Assembly (NCBI GenBank): GCA_003142095.1
Contig: PLON01000044.1
Location: 1,210-34,328, forward strand
DNA from: Acidimicrobiaceae bacterium
GTDB taxonomy: Bacteria; Actinomycetota; Acidimicrobiia; Acidimicrobiales; RAAP-2
Length of the DNA: 33,119 bases
Direction of reading: 5' to 3'
The notes below the pieces were generated by a model, which was not told the origin of the DNA, did not search any database, and saw nothing but the letters and a program-made list of their open reading frames with translations. Made by a program: the position numbers and the translations under genes. Below are positions 14,147 to 31,325 of this stretch, one piece after another. Each line of letters starts with the position of its first letter. Within the stretch, counting starts at the first letter, position 1.

Positions 14147-14790
14147 GTGTTGAAGATCTCTACGACTACGACGAGCTACGCAAACTAGACGTTCCTACGG
14201 TCTTCGTGGCGCAGGTAAAAAGCGCGACTCTCGTCCTCGGGGGTAATCAGTTGATCGACGTCGTGGACGTGTCGCGTACTCCCGCAGTGCGCCGCCGACG
14301 TGGTGGAGGGGGACTGGTCCTCTTGCGTCCGGACGATCTCTGGATCGACTGGTGGATCCCGCACGGCGATCCGCTTTGGAGTCACGACGTACGGGTGAGC
14401 TCGATTCAGGTCGGCAACTGGTGGGCGGACGTGCTTCGAGAGCGCACGCGCGACGAAGTTCGCGTGCACGAAGGCTCGCTTAAAGGGGACCCGACGTTTC
14501 GCGTCGTGTGCTTCGCCGGGCGCGGTCCGGGAGAGGTATTTGTCAATGATCGAAAGGCCGTCGGTCTTACTCAGTGGCGCGTGCGTGAGGGCGTATTCGT
14601 CTCCACCGTGCTGCACGCGGGACCGACTACCGACGTGCTCGAATATCTCCGTGACCCTCCCGCGGGTCTCGAAGAGGCTCTCGATCACCACACTCTCACG
14701 TCATTATCGTTAGGCGCTCGCGACACGCTCGTCGCGCAACTTACGAAGGCGAGTGGTCTGTTTCAAGTTCGCCCTCGTCTCTTCGTCTAA
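14143..14790 (+). CDS. Lipoate-protein ligase A family protein
   Basis: A 215-residue protein of the biotin/lipoate ligase superfamily. RRRGGGGLV (about residues 51-59) is the RRxGGG lipoyl-AMP-binding motif, and GPGEVFVNDRKAVGLTQWR carries the family lysine at Lys138 in K-x-x-G-x-x-Q. The C-terminal accessory domain is short or absent, as in many two-gene or scavenging forms. It could attach or transfer lipoyl or octanoyl groups, or be a related acyltransferase. GTG 14143 overlaps the HNH stop (GTGA). Being next to the dcw genes is probably a conserved neighbourhood rather than a functional link. Confidence 0.78.
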   Translation: MSVEDLYDYDELRKLDVPTVFVAQVKSATLVLGGNQLIDVVDVSRTPAVRRRRGGGGLVLLRPDDLWIDWWIPHGDPLWSHDVRVSSIQVGNWWADVLRERTRDEVRVHEGSLKGDPTFRVVCFAGRGPGEVFVNDRKAVGLTQWRVREGVFVSTVLHAGPTTDVLEYLRDPPAGLEEALDHHTLTSLSLGARDTLVAQLTKASGLFQVRPRLFV

Positions 14791-14808
14791 CCACACTCAC
14801 ACGAACAC

Positions 14809-14858
14809 TTGATCGCTTTTTCGACTCGTGGGTTCTCGACGTCACTCTTTTCGATCAA
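14809..14858. terminator. Weak candidate hairpin after the ligase gene
   Basis: TTGATCG (14809-14815) and CGATCAA (14852-14858) are exact inverted repeats of seven bases with a long loop of 36 bases, 19 bases beyond the ligase stop. There is no clear T-tract, so termination is uncertain. It might separate the ligase transcript from the mraZ promoter. Confidence 0.25.
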
Positions 14859-14870
14859 AACGGAATCGAT

Positions 14871-14900
14871 TTGGCGCTGAGTGGTTGACGGTGGTGTAAT
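14871..14900 (+). promoter_or_regulatory. Candidate mraZ operon promoter
   Basis: -35-like TTGGCG (14871-14876) and -10-like TGTAAT (14895-14900, five of six to TATAAT) are separated by 18 bases. Transcription would begin near 14907, leaving a leader of about 40 bases with GGAGGA (14935-14940) before ATG 14946. A TTGACG at 14885 lacks a well-placed -10. The GTG repeat array covers the spacer, -10 and leader. Confidence 0.45.
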
Positions 14901-14925
14901 GTGTCACGAAGTGGGGGAAAGTGGT
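14881..14925 (+). promoter_or_regulatory. Candidate MraZ operator: five GTG-led units at 10-base period
   Basis: Units beginning at 14881, 14891, 14901, 14911 and 14921 each start with GTG: GTGGT, GTGGT, GTGTC, GTGGG, GTGGT. The period is exactly 10 bases, one helical turn. Known MraZ proteins, which are ring-shaped AbrB-like regulators, bind short direct repeats (TGGGN in E. coli) at the same 10-base spacing upstream of their own gene. This points to autoregulation of the dcw operon. Confidence 0.65.
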
Positions 14926-14945
14926 GAACCCGCGGGAGGACGAAA

Positions 14946-15365
14946 ATGCTCGGCTTTGTTGGTCAGTTTCAGCACTCGCTGGACGCCAAAGGTCGGCTCA
15001 TTCTGCCCGCAAAGTTCCGCGGTGAGTTCGAACGCGGTGGTCACTTAAGCCCTAACACCGAAGGGTGCGTGGCGCTCTGGACACCGGGAGAGTTTTCGCG
15101 TCAGATGGAAGAGCGTCTCCTCCAAAGTCGAGCCGGCGGATCGGCCGATCGCCAGCAGGTGCGTTACTGGTCGGCCAATTCTTCAGACGTCGAGTTCGAC
15201 AAGCAGGGTCGATTCGCGTTGCCGTCGTCGATCCGTGACTACGGACAGCTCAGTGGAGACGTGCTCGTGGTCGGCGCCATTGACCACGTCGAACTGTGGA
15301 ATCCAACCACCTACATAGAGAAAGTGAATGCCGCCGAAGAGATCTTTAAGCAGGGCAGTGACTAG
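14946..15365 (+). CDS. mraZ: Transcriptional regulator MraZ
   Basis: A 139-residue protein with two AbrB-like half domains, each marked by a D-x-KGR-type turn: FQHSLDAKGRLILPAKFR (about residues 7-24) and VEFDKQGRFALPSSIR (about 80-95). MraZ forms a ring oligomer that binds repeats in front of its own gene and usually represses the dcw operon. GGAGGA lies five bases before ATG 14946. It is the first gene of the operon proper, and a five-unit repeat array sits over its promoter. The length is close to that of E. coli MraZ (about 150). Confidence 0.95.
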   Translation: MLGFVGQFQHSLDAKGRLILPAKFRGEFERGGHLSPNTEGCVALWTPGEFSRQMEERLLQSRAGGSADRQQVRYWSANSSDVEFDKQGRFALPSSIRDYGQLSGDVLVVGAIDHVELWNPTTYIEKVNAAEEIFKQGSD

Positions 15366-16423
15366 TGACCAGTCTCTCGGAGCAGTACCGGCCGCGGACC
15401 ACGCGCAGCCTGGCAATCGTGACAGCGATGCGGGATTCCTCCTCCGCCTTCTCGCCCGTTGTCGCGATTGAAAGGCTGCGGATGGCCCAGGACCGTTTTC
15501 ACGAACCCGTGCTCACGAGCGAAATCGTCGAGCTCTTTTCCAGCCTGCCGGCTGGCGTGGTCGTTGACGCCACGTTGGGCGGCGCCGGTCACGCCGCAGC
15601 GATTCTCTCCGTCGCACCGCAACTTCGGGTTCTCGGCATCGACCGCGACCCCGACGCCATTGAAGAGGCGAGCAATCGTCTGGCACCCTTTGCATCGCGC
15701 GCCCTGGTAGCCAAAGCCACCTTCGCCGAACTCGACGAGATTCTCGAGCGTGAAGTCTCGTTCGTTAACGGTGATCCTGTGGTCGGCGTTCTGATGGACC
15801 TCGGCGTCTCGTCACACCAGCTCGACGAGGCCAGTCGCGGGTTTTCCTTTCGGGCCGACGCGCCGCTCGATATGCGCATGGATCCGACGTCGGGCGAATC
15901 CGCGGCGGACTACCTCTCGCACGTGGACGTTCACGAGTTCGCTCGGCTGCTCCGCAACCATGGTGAAGGTCGATTTGCCGGATCCATTGCCAAGTCCGTG
16001 ATTGATCGCCAGCCCCGCACGACCAGTGAACTCAGCGAAGCAGTGGAGCGTGCCGTCCCCATGGCGGCCCGTCGACGTGGCCACGTCGCGACGCGCGTCT
16101 TTCAAGCACTGCGCGTAGCGGTGAACGGCGAGGAAGAGCAACTCGTTGACGGCCTCAACGCCGCACTCGACGCCGTCAGCGTCGGAGGACTCGTGGCAGT
16201 CATCTCGTATCACTCGGGTGAGGATCGAGTGGTTAAGTCCTTCTTCGCCGACCAACAGAGCGGCGGGTGTCGCTGTTCGCCTGAACTCGGCTGCGTGTGC
16301 GGTGCAGTCTCGCGAGTTCACGTCTTTAAGGCCAGCGCTCAACTCGCCAGCGTTGGCGAAATCTCTGGTAATCCGCGCGCCCGATCGGCGCGTCTACGAA
16401 TCGCGCGAAAGGTTGCGTCGTGA
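15365..16423 (+). CDS. rsmH: 16S rRNA (cytosine(1402)-N(4))-methyltransferase
   Basis: SAM-dependent methyltransferase RsmH (MraW), which methylates C1402 N4 in the 16S rRNA decoding centre. Visible are HEPVLTSEIV, the SAM-binding VVDATLGGAGHAAAIL, GVLMDLGVSSHQLDEA, and RGFSFRADAPLDMRMD, all family hallmarks, and a C-terminal RSARLRIARK. Two starts are possible. GTG 15365 overlaps the mraZ stop as TAGTG and gives 352 residues. ATG 15482, with AAAGG before it, gives 313, the usual length. I use 15365 because the extra 39 codons show third-position GC of roughly four in five, well above positions one and two, as in coding DNA; but the shorter form remains quite possible. Confidence 0.92.
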   Translation: MTSLSEQYRPRTTRSLAIVTAMRDSSSAFSPVVAIERLRMAQDRFHEPVLTSEIVELFSSLPAGVVVDATLGGAGHAAAILSVAPQLRVLGIDRDPDAIEEASNRLAPFASRALVAKATFAELDEILEREVSFVNGDPVVGVLMDLGVSSHQLDEASRGFSFRADAPLDMRMDPTSGESAADYLSHVDVHEFARLLRNHGEGRFAGSIAKSVIDRQPRTTSELSEAVERAVPMAARRRGHVATRVFQALRVAVNGEEEQLVDGLNAALDAVSVGGLVAVISYHSGEDRVVKSFFADQQSGGCRCSPELGCVCGAVSRVHVFKASAQLASVGEISGNPRARSARLRIARKVAS

Positions 16424-18689: not shown

Positions 18690-20086
18690 TGCAACTCGGT
18701 GACATCTTGGATGACGTGGCGCTCGACGTAGCGACGAGCAGCCTCGAGATCGATCGAGTCGAGATCGATTCGCGTGTCTGTGGGCCGGGTGCTCTCTTTT
18801 TTGCCATGCCCGGTACCAAACAGAATGGAGCCGCCTACGCGCGCGAAGCGGTGGCGATGGGCGCCGAATGCGTGGTGGGTAGCGTCTCGATTTCCCTCGA
18901 CGCCCCCGTCGTGGTCGTGCCCGCCTCGCAACTTCCGGCGCTTCTCGCACACGCCTGCGCGACGATTACTGGACACCCCGAAACTCGAACGACGTTGGTC
19001 GGCGTGACCGGCACGAACGGGAAAACGAGCGTCACCACGATTCTCGCCACCCTCGCGCGGGCCCTCGAGTGGAACGCGTCAAACATTGGCACGTTGACGA
19101 ACGAACGCACGACGCCGGCTCCGCCGGAGTTGTATCGAACGCTGGCCTCAACGGTGTCGAGTTTTGACTCCTCGCGGCCTCACTCGCTCGTCGCCCTCGA
19201 AGTGTCGAGTCACGCGCTCGATCAGCACCGCGTCGAGGGCCTTCGCTTCTGCGTCGCCGCTTTTACCAATCTCAGTCACGATCACCTCGACTACCACGGC
19301 ACGATGGAGCAGTACTTCGAGACAAAGGCGTCTCTCTTTACGGGTGAGTACGCCAAGCGCGCCGTGATCTGGGTCGACGACCCCTACGGCGAACGACTGG
19401 CGGCAGCGACCGCTCTGCCCGTCACGCGCGTAAGCCGGAGCGACGCGCACGACGTGGTCAACTCGCTGCGCGGTTCGACGTTCTTCTGGCGCGATCATTT
19501 GGTGAACTCCCCGCTCGTGGGCGACTACAACGTCGATAACGCGTTGGTGGCGATGGCGATCATGAGCGCACTCGGCGCCGACGACGCGCAGATCGCGGCG
19601 TCGATGGCCGATGTCACCTCGGTGCCCGGTCGTTTCGACGTGCTCTACGGGCGCGGCATCACGGTCATCGTCGACTACGCCCATACGCCCGAAGGGCTCG
19701 AGAGATTGTTGCGCGACGTGCGCACGTTGCAACCCGACGGACGACTGATCACTGTCTTTGGTGCAGGGGGCGATCGCGACCGCACGAAGCGACCCGAAAT
19801 GGGTCGCGTGGCGACGCAACAGTCGGACCTGACAATTGTGACGTCCGATAACCCGCGTTCCGAGACGTCAGATGCAATTATTGATGCAGTGATGTCGGGG
19901 TGCGTATCGGACGCTCAGGTCGTTCGCGAGAGCGATCGTCGTCGGGCCATCGCTCTCGCACTAGAAAGCGCTACCGAAGGCGACATCGTCGTGCTCGCGG
20001 GCAAGGGACACGAAGCGACCCAGACAACGGGCGATCTCGTGATCCCCTTTGATGATCGAGTGGTAGCGAAGGAACTGATGAGGTGA
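18689..20086 (+). CDS. murE: UDP-MurNAc-tripeptide synthetase MurE (meso-DAP type)
   Basis: A 465-residue Mur ligase that adds the third stem residue to UDP-MurNAc-L-Ala-D-Glu in the cytoplasm. The ATP loop GTNGKTS is at residues 108-114, NLSHDHLDYHGTMEQY follows in the central domain, and DNPR at 387-390 is the meso-diaminopimelate recognition motif, so the wall is probably DAP-based. The start may be GTG 18686 or ATG 18689, one codon apart; the ATG overlaps the ftsI stop. It is followed directly by mraY, without the murF gene found there in most dcw clusters. Confidence 0.94.
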   Translation: MQLGDILDDVALDVATSSLEIDRVEIDSRVCGPGALFFAMPGTKQNGAAYAREAVAMGAECVVGSVSISLDAPVVVVPASQLPALLAHACATITGHPETRTTLVGVTGTNGKTSVTTILATLARALEWNASNIGTLTNERTTPAPPELYRTLASTVSSFDSSRPHSLVALEVSSHALDQHRVEGLRFCVAAFTNLSHDHLDYHGTMEQYFETKASLFTGEYAKRAVIWVDDPYGERLAAATALPVTRVSRSDAHDVVNSLRGSTFFWRDHLVNSPLVGDYNVDNALVAMAIMSALGADDAQIAASMADVTSVPGRFDVLYGRGITVIVDYAHTPEGLERLLRDVRTLQPDGRLITVFGAGGDRDRTKRPEMGRVATQQSDLTIVTSDNPRSETSDAIIDAVMSGCVSDAQVVRESDRRRAIALALESATEGDIVVLAGKGHEATQTTGDLVIPFDDRVVAKELMR

Positions 20087-20093
20087 GTGTGAC

Positions 20094-21125
20094 ATGTTGA
20101 GCTTGATGGAGTCGGGCGGCGTCGCGTTCCTCCTCGCGCTGTTTCTGACACCCCTGTGGATTCGTTTCCTCACTGCTCGCTCGCTCGTTCAGCGGATTCG
20201 CGAGGACGGACCTACGCACCAGCACAAGGCTGGCACCCCCACGATGGGTGGCGTGATTATCGTCTTCGCCGCGCTACTCGGCTACGCCATGGGTCACATC
20301 GGTACGTCGGTCGTCTTCACCCGTTCTGGGATCCTCGCTATCCTCGCCATCGTCGCGTCGGGGTTGTTGGGTTTCGTCGACGACTACCTCGCGATTCGTA
20401 ATCTGCGCAACTTAGGTCTCAACAAGCGCGGAAAACTTATCGGCCAACTGGTGATCGCGGCCGTCTTCGCGGTGCTGGCCCTCAACTGGGTGCACACCTC
20501 CACGCAGCTGTCCTTCACCCGGTTCTCTCTGCCCGGGTGGCAACTGACGTCGGTGGGGTGGTTCTTTCTCGGGGCGTTCGTCATCATCGGGACGTCCAAC
20601 GCCGTCAACCTGACCGACGGACTCGACGGCCTCGCGGCCGGATCGGCGACGTTCTGCTTTGGGGTCCTCGCGATTATTGGCTACTGGCAGTTTCGACACT
20701 TCGACATTTATCACCTTCACGCGTCACTCGACCTCGGTCTCGTGGCGGTTGCGCTCGTGGGGGCGTGTCTCGGCTTTCTATGGTGGAACGCGGCCCCTGC
20801 GCGGATCTTCATGGGTGATACCGGCGCACTCGCGGTGGGCACGGGACTCGGCGCGCTCTGTCTATTAATGAACCTTGACCTATTGCTTCCCATCATCGGC
20901 GGCCTCTTTGTTGCCGTGACCCTGTCGGTGATTATCCAGGTAATTAGTTTTCGCCTCTTCGGGCGGCGGGTGTTTCGCATGGCGCCGTTTCAGCACCACT
21001 TCGAACTTCGCGGTTGGCCCGAGACGACGGTCATTATCCGTTTCTGGATTATGGCGGGGCTGCTCGCGATGCTCGGACTCGGGATTTTTTACGGCGATTT
21101 TCTAAAGATTGCGAAGGTGGGTTAA
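20094..21125 (+). CDS. mraY: Phospho-MurNAc-pentapeptide translocase MraY
   Basis: A 343-residue polytopic protein with about ten membrane helices. It transfers phospho-MurNAc-pentapeptide to undecaprenyl phosphate, making lipid I. Key motifs are KAGTPTMGG near the N-terminus, Asp96-Asp97 in FVDDY, NLTDGLDG, and FMGDTG with Asp242. The third loop normally reads HHH-F-E; here it is Gln300-His301-His302-Phe-Glu, so the first His is changed. The ATG lies seven bases after the murE stop, and its own TAA is directly followed by the ftsW ATG. The murD gene often found next is absent. Confidence 0.95.
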   Translation: MLSLMESGGVAFLLALFLTPLWIRFLTARSLVQRIREDGPTHQHKAGTPTMGGVIIVFAALLGYAMGHIGTSVVFTRSGILAILAIVASGLLGFVDDYLAIRNLRNLGLNKRGKLIGQLVIAAVFAVLALNWVHTSTQLSFTRFSLPGWQLTSVGWFFLGAFVIIGTSNAVNLTDGLDGLAAGSATFCFGVLAIIGYWQFRHFDIYHLHASLDLGLVAVALVGACLGFLWWNAAPARIFMGDTGALAVGTGLGALCLLMNLDLLLPIIGGLFVAVTLSVIIQVISFRLFGRRVFRMAPFQHHFELRGWPETTVIIRFWIMAGLLAMLGLGIFYGDFLKIAKVG

Positions 21126-22451
21126 ATGTCGATTCGTTCCCTCGAGAGACGTGCCACGCGTCCTGCGGCGCGGCGCGAAGCGACTCGCTCGCCCGAGCGC
21201 GGGAGAGGACTGCTGCAGCCTTTGCCGCGCGGGGACAACACTGCGCGCGTCCTCATCGTTGTCACCACCGCGCTCGTCATCTTTGGCGCGATCTTCGTCG
21301 CCTCGGCGAGTGAAGGACAGTCGGCCGCGAACGGTGGGACGGCATTTTCGATCATGGTCCACGACGTGGCCTACCTCTGTCTCGGGATCTTTGCCCTCTA
21401 CCTTGCGGCGCGGGTGCGCCTAGAGCGCCTCGTCAAGACCGCGCCGCTACTCGTCGCGGGGGGGCTGTTCTTACTCGTGGCGGTGAAGGCGGTCGGAGTG
21501 ACGTCGAACGGTGGCAAGCGGTGGCTGAACCTGCGCGTCATAGATCTTCAGCCGTCGGAACTGTTCAAGCTCTGCACCGTCGTGTTTCTCGCCTGGCTGG
21601 TGGAGCATCACCACGATGAGCTGAACAATTGGAAACAGCTCGCGCTGTGGACGCTGCCCCTGTGGCTGGGTTGTGGATTCATCGTTCTGGAACCGGACAT
21701 CGGCACTGCGTCGGTCGTCTTGATCATCGCGGTGTCGATGCTGGCCGTCGCCGGCCTCTCGCGTCGGCTTCTTCTTGGCGTGCTCGTCCTCACGGGAGCG
21801 GCGGTCGGTGGTTACCTCGCCATGGAGCCCTATTCGGCCAAGCGATTCTTCTCGTTTCTGCATCCGAATTCGAACCTGCTCGGCAGTGGGTACCAGCTGC
21901 TGCAGTCGAAAATTGGACTGGGCGCGGGCGGCATTACCGGTCTCGGGCTCGGTCACAGCCGCGAGAAGTGGGGACTGCTGCCGAACCCGCACACCGACTT
22001 CATCTTTACGATCGTCGGAGAAGAGCTCGGCATCATTGGCGCGCTCGCCGTCATCGCCCTCTTCATCGCATTTTTGATGGTGTCGGTGCGCATTGCACGC
22101 CAGTGCTCGAACCAGGTCTATCGACTCATCGCCGTCGGCATCACGACGTGGATCATTGTCGAGGCTCTCATTAACATCTCCTCAGTGGTGGGCTGGTGGG
22201 CCGTCACCGGCGTTCCCTTGCCCTTCTTTTCCTACGGCGGTACGGCGCTCATTACCGAGCTAGCGGCGGTGGGGCTGCTTTACAACATCGCCCACGACCG
22301 CTCGCGCAGCGGCGATCTCACCATTCGCCAGCACCAGCTGACGAACGTTCGCGAGACCTTCCAGCGTCCTCGCCCCCAGTCACGACCCGCTCCTCGACCC
22401 GCTCCTCGACCCGTCGCCCATCGTCGACCGCGCCATCCCCAGGAGTACTAG
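21126..22451 (+). CDS. ftsW: Septal peptidoglycan glycosyltransferase FtsW
   Basis: A 441-residue SEDS-family protein with about ten membrane helices, which polymerises lipid II at the septum together with FtsI. Hallmarks are GGKRWLNLRVIDLQPSEL, a Gly-rich GLGLGHSREKWGLLPNPHTD stretch carrying the conserved Asp of the catalytic loop, and a C-terminal GVPLPFFSYGG. Both ends are extended: a basic N-terminal tail of about 40 residues and a Pro/Arg-rich C-terminal tail (about 410-441), probably cytosolic. FtsW rather than RodA is favoured by position within dcw. Start ATG follows the mraY stop without a gap; its stop overlaps murG as TAGTG. Confidence 0.93.
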   Translation: MSIRSLERRATRPAARREATRSPERGRGLLQPLPRGDNTARVLIVVTTALVIFGAIFVASASEGQSAANGGTAFSIMVHDVAYLCLGIFALYLAARVRLERLVKTAPLLVAGGLFLLVAVKAVGVTSNGGKRWLNLRVIDLQPSELFKLCTVVFLAWLVEHHHDELNNWKQLALWTLPLWLGCGFIVLEPDIGTASVVLIIAVSMLAVAGLSRRLLLGVLVLTGAAVGGYLAMEPYSAKRFFSFLHPNSNLLGSGYQLLQSKIGLGAGGITGLGLGHSREKWGLLPNPHTDFIFTIVGEELGIIGALAVIALFIAFLMVSVRIARQCSNQVYRLIAVGITTWIIVEALINISSVVGWWAVTGVPLPFFSYGGTALITELAAVGLLYNIAHDRSRSGDLTIRQHQLTNVRETFQRPRPQSRPAPRPAPRPVAHRRPRHPQEY

Positions 22452-30296: not shown

Positions 30297-31325
30297 ATGC
30301 CGTCGAGCGCAAAGACCACGAAAAAGGCCCCCACGAAGAAGGCGGTCGCGAAAAAGCCCGCTTCGCGGGCGCCCGTGAAGAAAGTCGTGAAGAAGGCGGC
30401 GAAGACCGCCCCGGTGAAGAAGGCGACAGCGAAGAAGGCTCCCGCGAAGAAGACGGTCGCGAAAAAGCCTGTCGCATTGACGGCGGCCCAAAAGGCGGCG
30501 GCGGCGAAGAAGCAAAAGGCTCTCGCGGCTGACCAGGCAAAGAAGGAACGCGACGCCAAGGCGAAGGCCGCCGCGCAAAAGGCACTCGTACGCCAAAAGG
30601 CTCTCGACGCCGCGAAGGCGAAGAAAGAGCGCGAAGCGAAAGCTCGCGCCCTGGCCAAAGAGAAGGCCGTGGAGCAGAAGGCCCGTGCGACCGCCGCGGT
30701 AAAGGCGAAGAAGGAACGCGACGCCAAGGCAAAGATCGCGGCCAAAGAGCGCGAAGTCGCGCGTAAGGCGCGCGAGAAGGCTGCCGTCGAGGCGAAGAAG
30801 CAACGCGAGATCGAACACAAGCGCAAAGCCATCGAAGCGGAGAAGCAGCGCAAACTGCGCGAGATCGAACGTCGCGAGTCCGAAGAGCGCAAGCGTCAAG
30901 AGCGTCGCGAAGCCGAAGAGCTGAAGCGTCAAGAGGCTCTGGAGCGAAAGATGCACTCCAAGCCCTACGCCGAAGATCGCGAATTCCTCGAGGAACTACG
31001 CGGACTGCTCCTTGAAACTCGTGAGGCGACGACGGCTCAAATTGCCGTGAGCGAATCTGAAGCGAACGAGATGCTCGTGGACCGTGAGCGACTCGAGTAC
31101 GACGACGAGGACGGCAGCAGCGTCGCGTCGGACATTCAGCGAGACCAGTTGAAGGACTACGCTTCGGCGCTTCGCCTCAAGGTCGACGAGATCGACGTGG
31201 CGCTCGCGCGTATCGACGACGGGAGCTACGGGCGCTGTGACGAGTGCTACGAACCCATCTCGCAACCGAGACTGCGCGTGCAGCTGCCGGTCTTTACTTG
31301 CGTGTCGTGCCGCGCCAGCGTTTAA
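30297..31325 (+). CDS. TraR/DksA zinc-finger protein with histone-H1-like N-terminal tail
   Basis: A 342-residue protein, more than twice the length of typical DksA. Residues about 1-65 are almost only Lys, Ala, Pro, Thr and Val in AKK/PAKK-type repeats like bacterial histone-H1-like tails. About 66-225 is a very charged Lys/Arg/Glu/Ala helix, probably one long coiled coil. The last 115 residues are TraR/DksA-like, with the four zinc cysteines Cys314, Cys317, Cys335 and Cys338. The C-terminal part could reach RNA polymerase's secondary channel, while the tail should bind DNA nonspecifically. DksA-type genes near lspA and rluD are common in actinomycetes. The lspA start overlaps its 3' end. 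Confidence 0.85.
   Translation: MPSSAKTTKKAPTKKAVAKKPASRAPVKKVVKKAAKTAPVKKATAKKAPAKKTVAKKPVALTAAQKAAAAKKQKALAADQAKKERDAKAKAAAQKALVRQKALDAAKAKKEREAKARALAKEKAVEQKARATAAVKAKKERDAKAKIAAKEREVARKAREKAAVEAKKQREIEHKRKAIEAEKQRKLREIERRESEERKRQERREAEELKRQEALERKMHSKPYAEDREFLEELRGLLLETREATTAQIAVSESEANEMLVDRERLEYDDEDGSSVASDIQRDQLKDYASALRLKVDEIDVALARIDDGSYGRCDECYEPISQPRLRVQLPVFTCVSCRASV

Follow-up and report, generated by a model that had tools for sequence, protein, structure and literature searches.

A predicted MraZ operator of five GTG boxes at the mraZ promoter of an Acidimicrobiaceae bacterium

Known MraZ sites and the array of the window

In the MraZ sites of B. subtilis, E. coli and mycoplasma, a GTG motif is repeated and conserved, as given in the available excerpts of PMC7761207. 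According to the same excerpts, the E. coli site lies downstream of the -10, and Burkholderia cenocepacia has four seven-base repeats with three-base spacers over the start site, within a 250-bp fragment that was shifted by MraZ in EMSA. The mycoplasma site is written as (AAAGTGKN3)3 in excerpts of PMC5282649 and also of PMC8475190. For M. genitalium, the latter excerpts report the box motif at mraZ only and higher mraW, MG_223 and ftsZ transcripts in the absence of MraZ. In addition, the structure entry 9sz7 announces in its title M. genitalium MraZ solved with a '4 box promoter'.

The window, i.e., the whole stretch of 33,119 nucleotides that was analyzed, carries five GTG triplets at a 10-base period (14881, 14891, 14901, 14911 and 14921), with GTGG in four units and GTGT in unit 3. 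By direct reading, this agrees exactly with the original prediction, and mraZ follows directly downstream as claimed, with 15 bases between unit 5 and its ATG. The five units, which fill 14881-14930, are given in Table 1 together with the neighboring features. The extent first proposed, 14881-14925, stands for the five units; it missed a weaker in-phase TTGG just upstream. Thus, the array comprises five strong units and one weak one, or six by the run measure described below.

Table 1. Array units, promoter element and genes at the mraZ locus of the window (percentages are matches to GTGG at three or more of four bases among 49 close relatives, unless stated otherwise)
Feature	Coordinates	Strand	Sequence	Basis or remark
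Unit 0, weak or degenerate, in phase	14871..14880	+	TTGGCGCTGA	TTGG at 14871-14874; alternatively or also -35 region
MraZ unit 1 (predicted)	14881..14890	+	GTGGTTGACG	92%
MraZ unit 2 (predicted)	14891..14900	+	GTGGTGTAAT	100%; holds first four bases of probable -10
Probable -10 hexamer	14897..14902	+	TAATGT	Last T is the T of the unit 3 GTG
MraZ unit 3 (predicted)	14901..14910	+	GTGTCACGAA	94%; GTG in 94%, GTGG in 39%
MraZ unit 4 (predicted)	14911..14920	+	GTGGGGGAAA	100%
MraZ unit 5 (predicted), last	14921..14930	+	GTGGTGAACC	98%; next phase position 6%
Ribosome-binding site of mraZ	14934..14940	+	GGGAGGA	Read by eye
mraZ, 139 aa, presumed binding protein	14946..15365	+		Pfam MraZ, fold and motifs
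rsmH (mraW), next dcw gene	15365..16423	+		TIGR00006, 264.3 bits (cut-off 154.3)

Direct repeats of GTG-core boxes, of seven plus three bases, likewise stand at the mraZ promoter of the Mollicutes M. gallisepticum and M. genitalium in the excerpted sources. Compared by eye with their AAAGTGK, unit 5 of the window (AAAGTGG) fits fully, units 3 and 4 fit at 6/7 positions and units 1 and 2 at 5/7. The published Mollicutes core, as excerpted, has three boxes and the 9sz7 title four, whereas the window has five strong ones and a weak one. The E. coli K-12 units (GTGGGAAATT GTGGGGCAAA GTGGGAATAA GGGG) are likewise GTGGG repeats at 10 bp, three perfect and one degenerate by the measure used here, but the excerpts place that array downstream of the -10, while two or three units of the window lie upstream of its probable -10. 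The B. cenocepacia repeats are similar in unit and spacer; as excerpted, they number four and are located downstream of the -10, whereas the five strong units of the window run through its probable -10. The original prediction had also proposed a slightly different core, GTGGK instead of TGGGN. This part had to be dropped: the units of E. coli themselves read GTGGG and the published sites share the GTG core. TGGGN and GTGGK are two ways of cutting one motif.

Nowhere else in the window, on whichever strand, do as many as three GTG triplets follow one another at a 10-bp period. Assuming independence at the window's GTG frequency of 0.022, the expectation per window, both strands included, is 3e-4 five-fold arrays. 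In 3 Mb of second-order Markov sequence, read on one strand, no array of four or five GTGs was obtained. The genome itself (2.64 Mb, 77 contigs, 96% complete) has a single match to the five-fold pattern, the one before mraZ. Given that a reversed-pattern control also matches once, genomic rarity alone is modest evidence, and the case is carried by the place before mraZ and by conservation. A wider search of this genome with AGTGG-N5-AGTGG-N5-AGTGG, allowing up to two mismatches, returned eight places including the mraZ site, against four for the reversed control. Five of the seven others were rejected, being in or at the end of open frames of at least 90 aa or showing the bare match only; L217 and L218 have partial in-phase units and no same-strand frame of at least 90 aa just downstream. 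Three GTGG in a row without mismatch were found at no place in the genome and at two in the control, and we do not claim a second MraZ target.

The mraZ product

The mraZ product passes the Pfam MraZ model with 65.8 bits (cut-off 23), and PF02381 matches two stretches of it. As regards family membership, two domains with both DxxxR motifs (DAKGR at 13-17, DKQGR at 85-89) and the fold were found, while the TIGR00242 score of 85.1 bits is under the NCBIfam cut-off of 98.35. The AlphaFold model (pLDDT 94.2) matches MraZ of M. pneumoniae and M. genitalium with Z 19.0-20.7 and rmsd 2.5-2.8 over 136-138 aligned positions, e.g., 1n0e (Z 20.7, rmsd 2.7, 136 aligned) and 9sz7 (Z 19.1, rmsd 2.5, 136 aligned), and all rows ranked under the MraZ entries in the structure search have Z below 5. 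Judged from this model, the protein has the MraZ fold, and the matched structures include entries with promoter DNA. An MraZ match was obtained in 57 of the 61 genomes comprising this one and its relatives (35/37 in the window's genus, 22/24 in other families of the order) and in 188/197 genomes searched in a phylum sample. Within that sample, one genus (g61 of family f50, genomes of 7.1-9.9 Mb) has no match in any of its seven members.

Conservation and length of the array

Conservation was followed in the sets of mraZ upstream regions listed in Table 2. GTGG pairs were counted by lag in the 200 bases upstream, with the other lags of 5-60 as control; for the run measure, each in-phase unit had to match at least three of the four bases of GTGG, with at least two perfect units. 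The genus set includes the window. As named loci, the best 80 of 573 were taken, which are skewed to close relatives; the other Actinomycetota and the Bacillota among them were sorted by record title. Five Acidimicrobiaceae MAGs are the nearest named relatives among these best 80 of 573. For ten of the 28 named close relatives, the upstream region is identical to that of a genus locus. From the 188 MraZ-bearing genomes of the phylum sample, 70 were used, namely the 30 best-scoring loci and 40 hand-picked among the matches listed, mainly for family coverage; four of the 70 belong to the window's order or class, and 69 remained after one identical upstream region was dropped. Identical upstream regions were counted once within each set, and L053 (contig end) and L205 (no upstream region) were removed from all counts.

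Table 2. GTGG periodicity and in-phase runs upstream of mraZ (n, number of loci; named sets are from the best 80 of 573)
Set	n	Pairs at lags 10/20/30/40/50/60	Other lags, mean (max)	Runs of at least five units	No array by run measure (some mraZ starts may be misplaced)
Genus	35	73/55/62/33/10/9	2.0 (9)	28/35	1/35
Named close relatives (best 80 of 573)	28	57/45/44/24/5/4	2.0 (9)	22/28	
Order	21	21/16/16/4/4/3	2.2 (9)	8/21	7/21
Other named Actinomycetota (best 80 of 573)	38	50/30/29/12/7/2	4.9 (24)	13/38	2/38
Phylum sample	69	105/63/18/7/6/4	3.8 (16)	6/69	6/69
Bacillota (best 80 of 573)	13	21/9/0/0/0/0	0.7 (8)	0/13	1/13

Many other Actinomycetota, many Bacillota and E. coli K-12 also have the same motif and period in front of mraZ. 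The lag controls are unclean in two sets: outside the multiples of 10, one lag reaches 24 in the other named Actinomycetota (best 80 of 573), and the maximum in the phylum sample is 16. Runs of five at periods of 7, 8, 9, 11, 12 or 13 bp were found in none of the sets. The comparison of mraZ upstream regions proposed with the original prediction was thus carried out, and the outcome named there as refuting it, a period not conserved in relatives, did not occur.

The array length is clade-dependent, and the longer array that had been predicted is borne out by the share of loci with at least five units (28/35 in the genus against 6/69 in the phylum sample and 0/13 in the Bacillota among the best 80 of 573). 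Counting one value per genus, such runs occur in 9/25 other genera of the order or class and in 4/57 among the remaining phylum sample (uncorrected for relatedness, Fisher p 0.002). Three or four boxes are usual in the other sampled lineages. By the relaxed run measure, three loci of the other named Actinomycetota (best 80 of 573) reach 8 or 9 units; since one of these, L187, has only two perfect units, long runs in a single locus are not to be trusted. In the genus, and less regularly in the order, the predicted operator is extended on its upstream side to five strong boxes, and frequently to six or seven. Seven units are present in the relatives L009, L013 and L015. As a side observation, L034 has seven and L157 six in-phase units, and several of these boxes are near-perfect AAGTGG.

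The per-unit figures come from 49 of 53 distinct close-relative upstream regions that fit a five-unit anchor, with L021, L022, L043 and L052 left out. As the anchor takes the best placement and rewards TA in unit 2, the values for units 1-5 (Table 1) and for TA are flattered; unit 0, unit -1 and the abrupt stop behind unit 5 did not enter its score. In these relatives the off-phase background is 7% (5% upstream), and the phase ends after unit 5. Unit 0 matches in 65%, mostly as TTGG, its second base being T in 0.90 and its third base G in 0.92, and unit -1 matches in 33%. The pooled unit reads GTGGnG followed by A-rich bases, with T and G at its center in 98% and 99%. This pattern bears on another reading of the G-rich stretch, as a conserved, transcription-controlling G-quadruplex in the mraZ promoter, which has been proposed for Staphylococcus aureus and other bacteria. 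A 2025 paper (PMC11796246), as available in excerpt, places such a motif downstream of the S. aureus mraZ promoter, describes it as conserved and presents biophysical and reporter data. Motifs of four tracts of at least two G lie over units 0-5 in 15/49 relatives, but those with tracts of at least three G (loops 1-7) in 0/49, the four low-anchor loci being excluded here as well, and 14871-14935 of the window holds neither kind. Moreover, a G-quadruplex requires neither the T of GTGG, kept at 98%, nor the 10-bp phase, which is kept too. On these sequences, the G-quadruplex reading is not supported for the window's clade and we consider it very improbable. In other bacteria too, the proposed 'conserved G-quadruplex' may overlap the MraZ operator, which would confound that reading as far as the excerpts of PMC11796246 describe it.

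Among units 1-5, the strongest systematic deviation is found in unit 3, which is mostly GTGT in close relatives. It follows the probable -10 directly and may be under a second constraint. Its GTGTCAC, kept in many species, contains the reverse complement of GACAC, which we take to be the WhiA motif, and could thus speak for a regulator other than MraZ on these repeats. HTH_WhiA was not found in the genome by a search that was positive in 3/14 control genomes. A further candidate is MtrA, since the Dietzia protein binds the mraZ promoter in EMSA (PMC9602371, in excerpt). That the repeats serve such a regulator instead of MraZ nevertheless seems most unlikely, considering that the same kind of array precedes mraZ in Bacillota and E. 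coli and fits the published MraZ sites.

Promoter position and proposed regulation

The hexamer TAATGT is likely the -10, judging from its sequence context, and transcription is predicted to start near 14909. Its T and A are kept at 0.92 and 0.94 in the 49 relatives, TA being part of the anchor score. Outside the genus, a TTGA[CT]N-N16-18-TANNNT promoter was found near the array in 42 of 59 actinomycetotal upstream regions (21 of the order and 38 named ones from the best 80 of 573), and in 33 of these 42, the final T of the -10 coincides with the T of an in-phase GTG position. Exactly two counted units start upstream of the -10 in 22 of the 42, none in nine, one in two, and three to five in nine. 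In the phylum sample, 13/69 have such a promoter, 10/13 in the same phase. The phase-lock is partly built in, as the T of GTG favors a match, but this does not hold for TTGAC and TA. The predicted overlap is supported both for the probable -10, by the phase in 33/42 other upstream regions (best 80 of 573 for the named ones), and for the leader. In the window's genus, TTGA[CT] stands at the expected distance in 0/53 upstream regions, and thus the promoter position there rests on phase homology. The genus keeps instead TTGG, in phase with the array and three bases further upstream than the usual -35 (14871-14876), which may mean a weaker promoter or a box that replaced the -35. A generic sigma-70 scan of 14700-15000 returned nothing. 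Two other elements were rejected, namely TTGACG at 14885-14890 as -35, which is inside unit 1 and by eye not kept in relatives, and TGTAAT at 14895 as -10, which is less general than the TANNNT at 14897, several relatives having GTATGG or GTATCG.

With the -10 placed in this way, the extra units would lie on the upstream side, inside the core promoter, and units 4 and 5 are probably transcribed. The leader units could then act as RNA, in an attenuator or in translational control. However, the predicted RNA folding is no better than that of shuffles (z 0.48 and 0.22), Rfam returned nothing for 14600-15200 with E up to 1, and the strict 10-bp period suggests double-stranded DNA, so that we give this reading hardly any weight.

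The array is almost certainly a docking site for the regulator MraZ. Its conservation, its 10-bp GTG-core direct repeats and its place at the promoter and leader of mraZ, the first dcw gene, point to the originally predicted MraZ operator, whose boxes would be bound by one or more MraZ rings that repress mraZ and the dcw genes from within the promoter (probability of roughly 93%). With every 10-bp step, a further GTGGNG box would come to lie on the same side of the helix, and successive boxes would be bound by neighboring subunits of one ring, or of several rings. The boxes extend from the -35/-10 spacer across the -10 and the start region as far as the leader, so that MraZ bound there would exclude RNA polymerase from the promoter. 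The outcome would be negative feedback on mraZ, on rsmH and on the genes that follow.

More tentatively, the genus and much of the order might use an operator of five to seven boxes that passes through the core promoter, with one box giving the last T of the -10. Its stoichiometry would call for an opened ring, more engaged subunits or two rings, and the feedback would be steeper or graded; we regard this as possible but doubtful. If true, such an array exceeds the four boxes of the 9sz7 title. This kind of operator is already known, but its length and threading through the core promoter may be new; among the matches listed in a search of part of the literature, there was no report of an MraZ operator of at least five units or on Acidimicrobiia. 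MraZ heads the cell-division gene cluster. Since box number differs countably between lineages, these genomes supply natural DNA for testing how a closed protein ring reads sites set in a straight row, and whether feedback strength is determined by the number of boxes.

Behind rsmH, the order is an FtsI/SpoVD-like penicillin-binding protein, murE, mraY, ftsW, murG, murC, murB, a weak ftsQ and ftsZ, followed by SepF and DivIVA; of these, the transpeptidase, ftsW, murG and ftsQ stay under their curated cut-offs. The genes murF and murD usually adjoin mraY. Here they are not beside it (mraY at 20086-21126); murD is on contig C60 (256.9 bits), and the best murF match, on contig C69, is under the cut-off with 188.9 bits. 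Further downstream, 30297-31325 encodes a 342-aa protein with a DksA/TraR-like C-terminus (PF01258, 25.3 bits; NF033459, 51.3 bits, under its cut-off) and a long lysine/alanine-rich N-terminal part.
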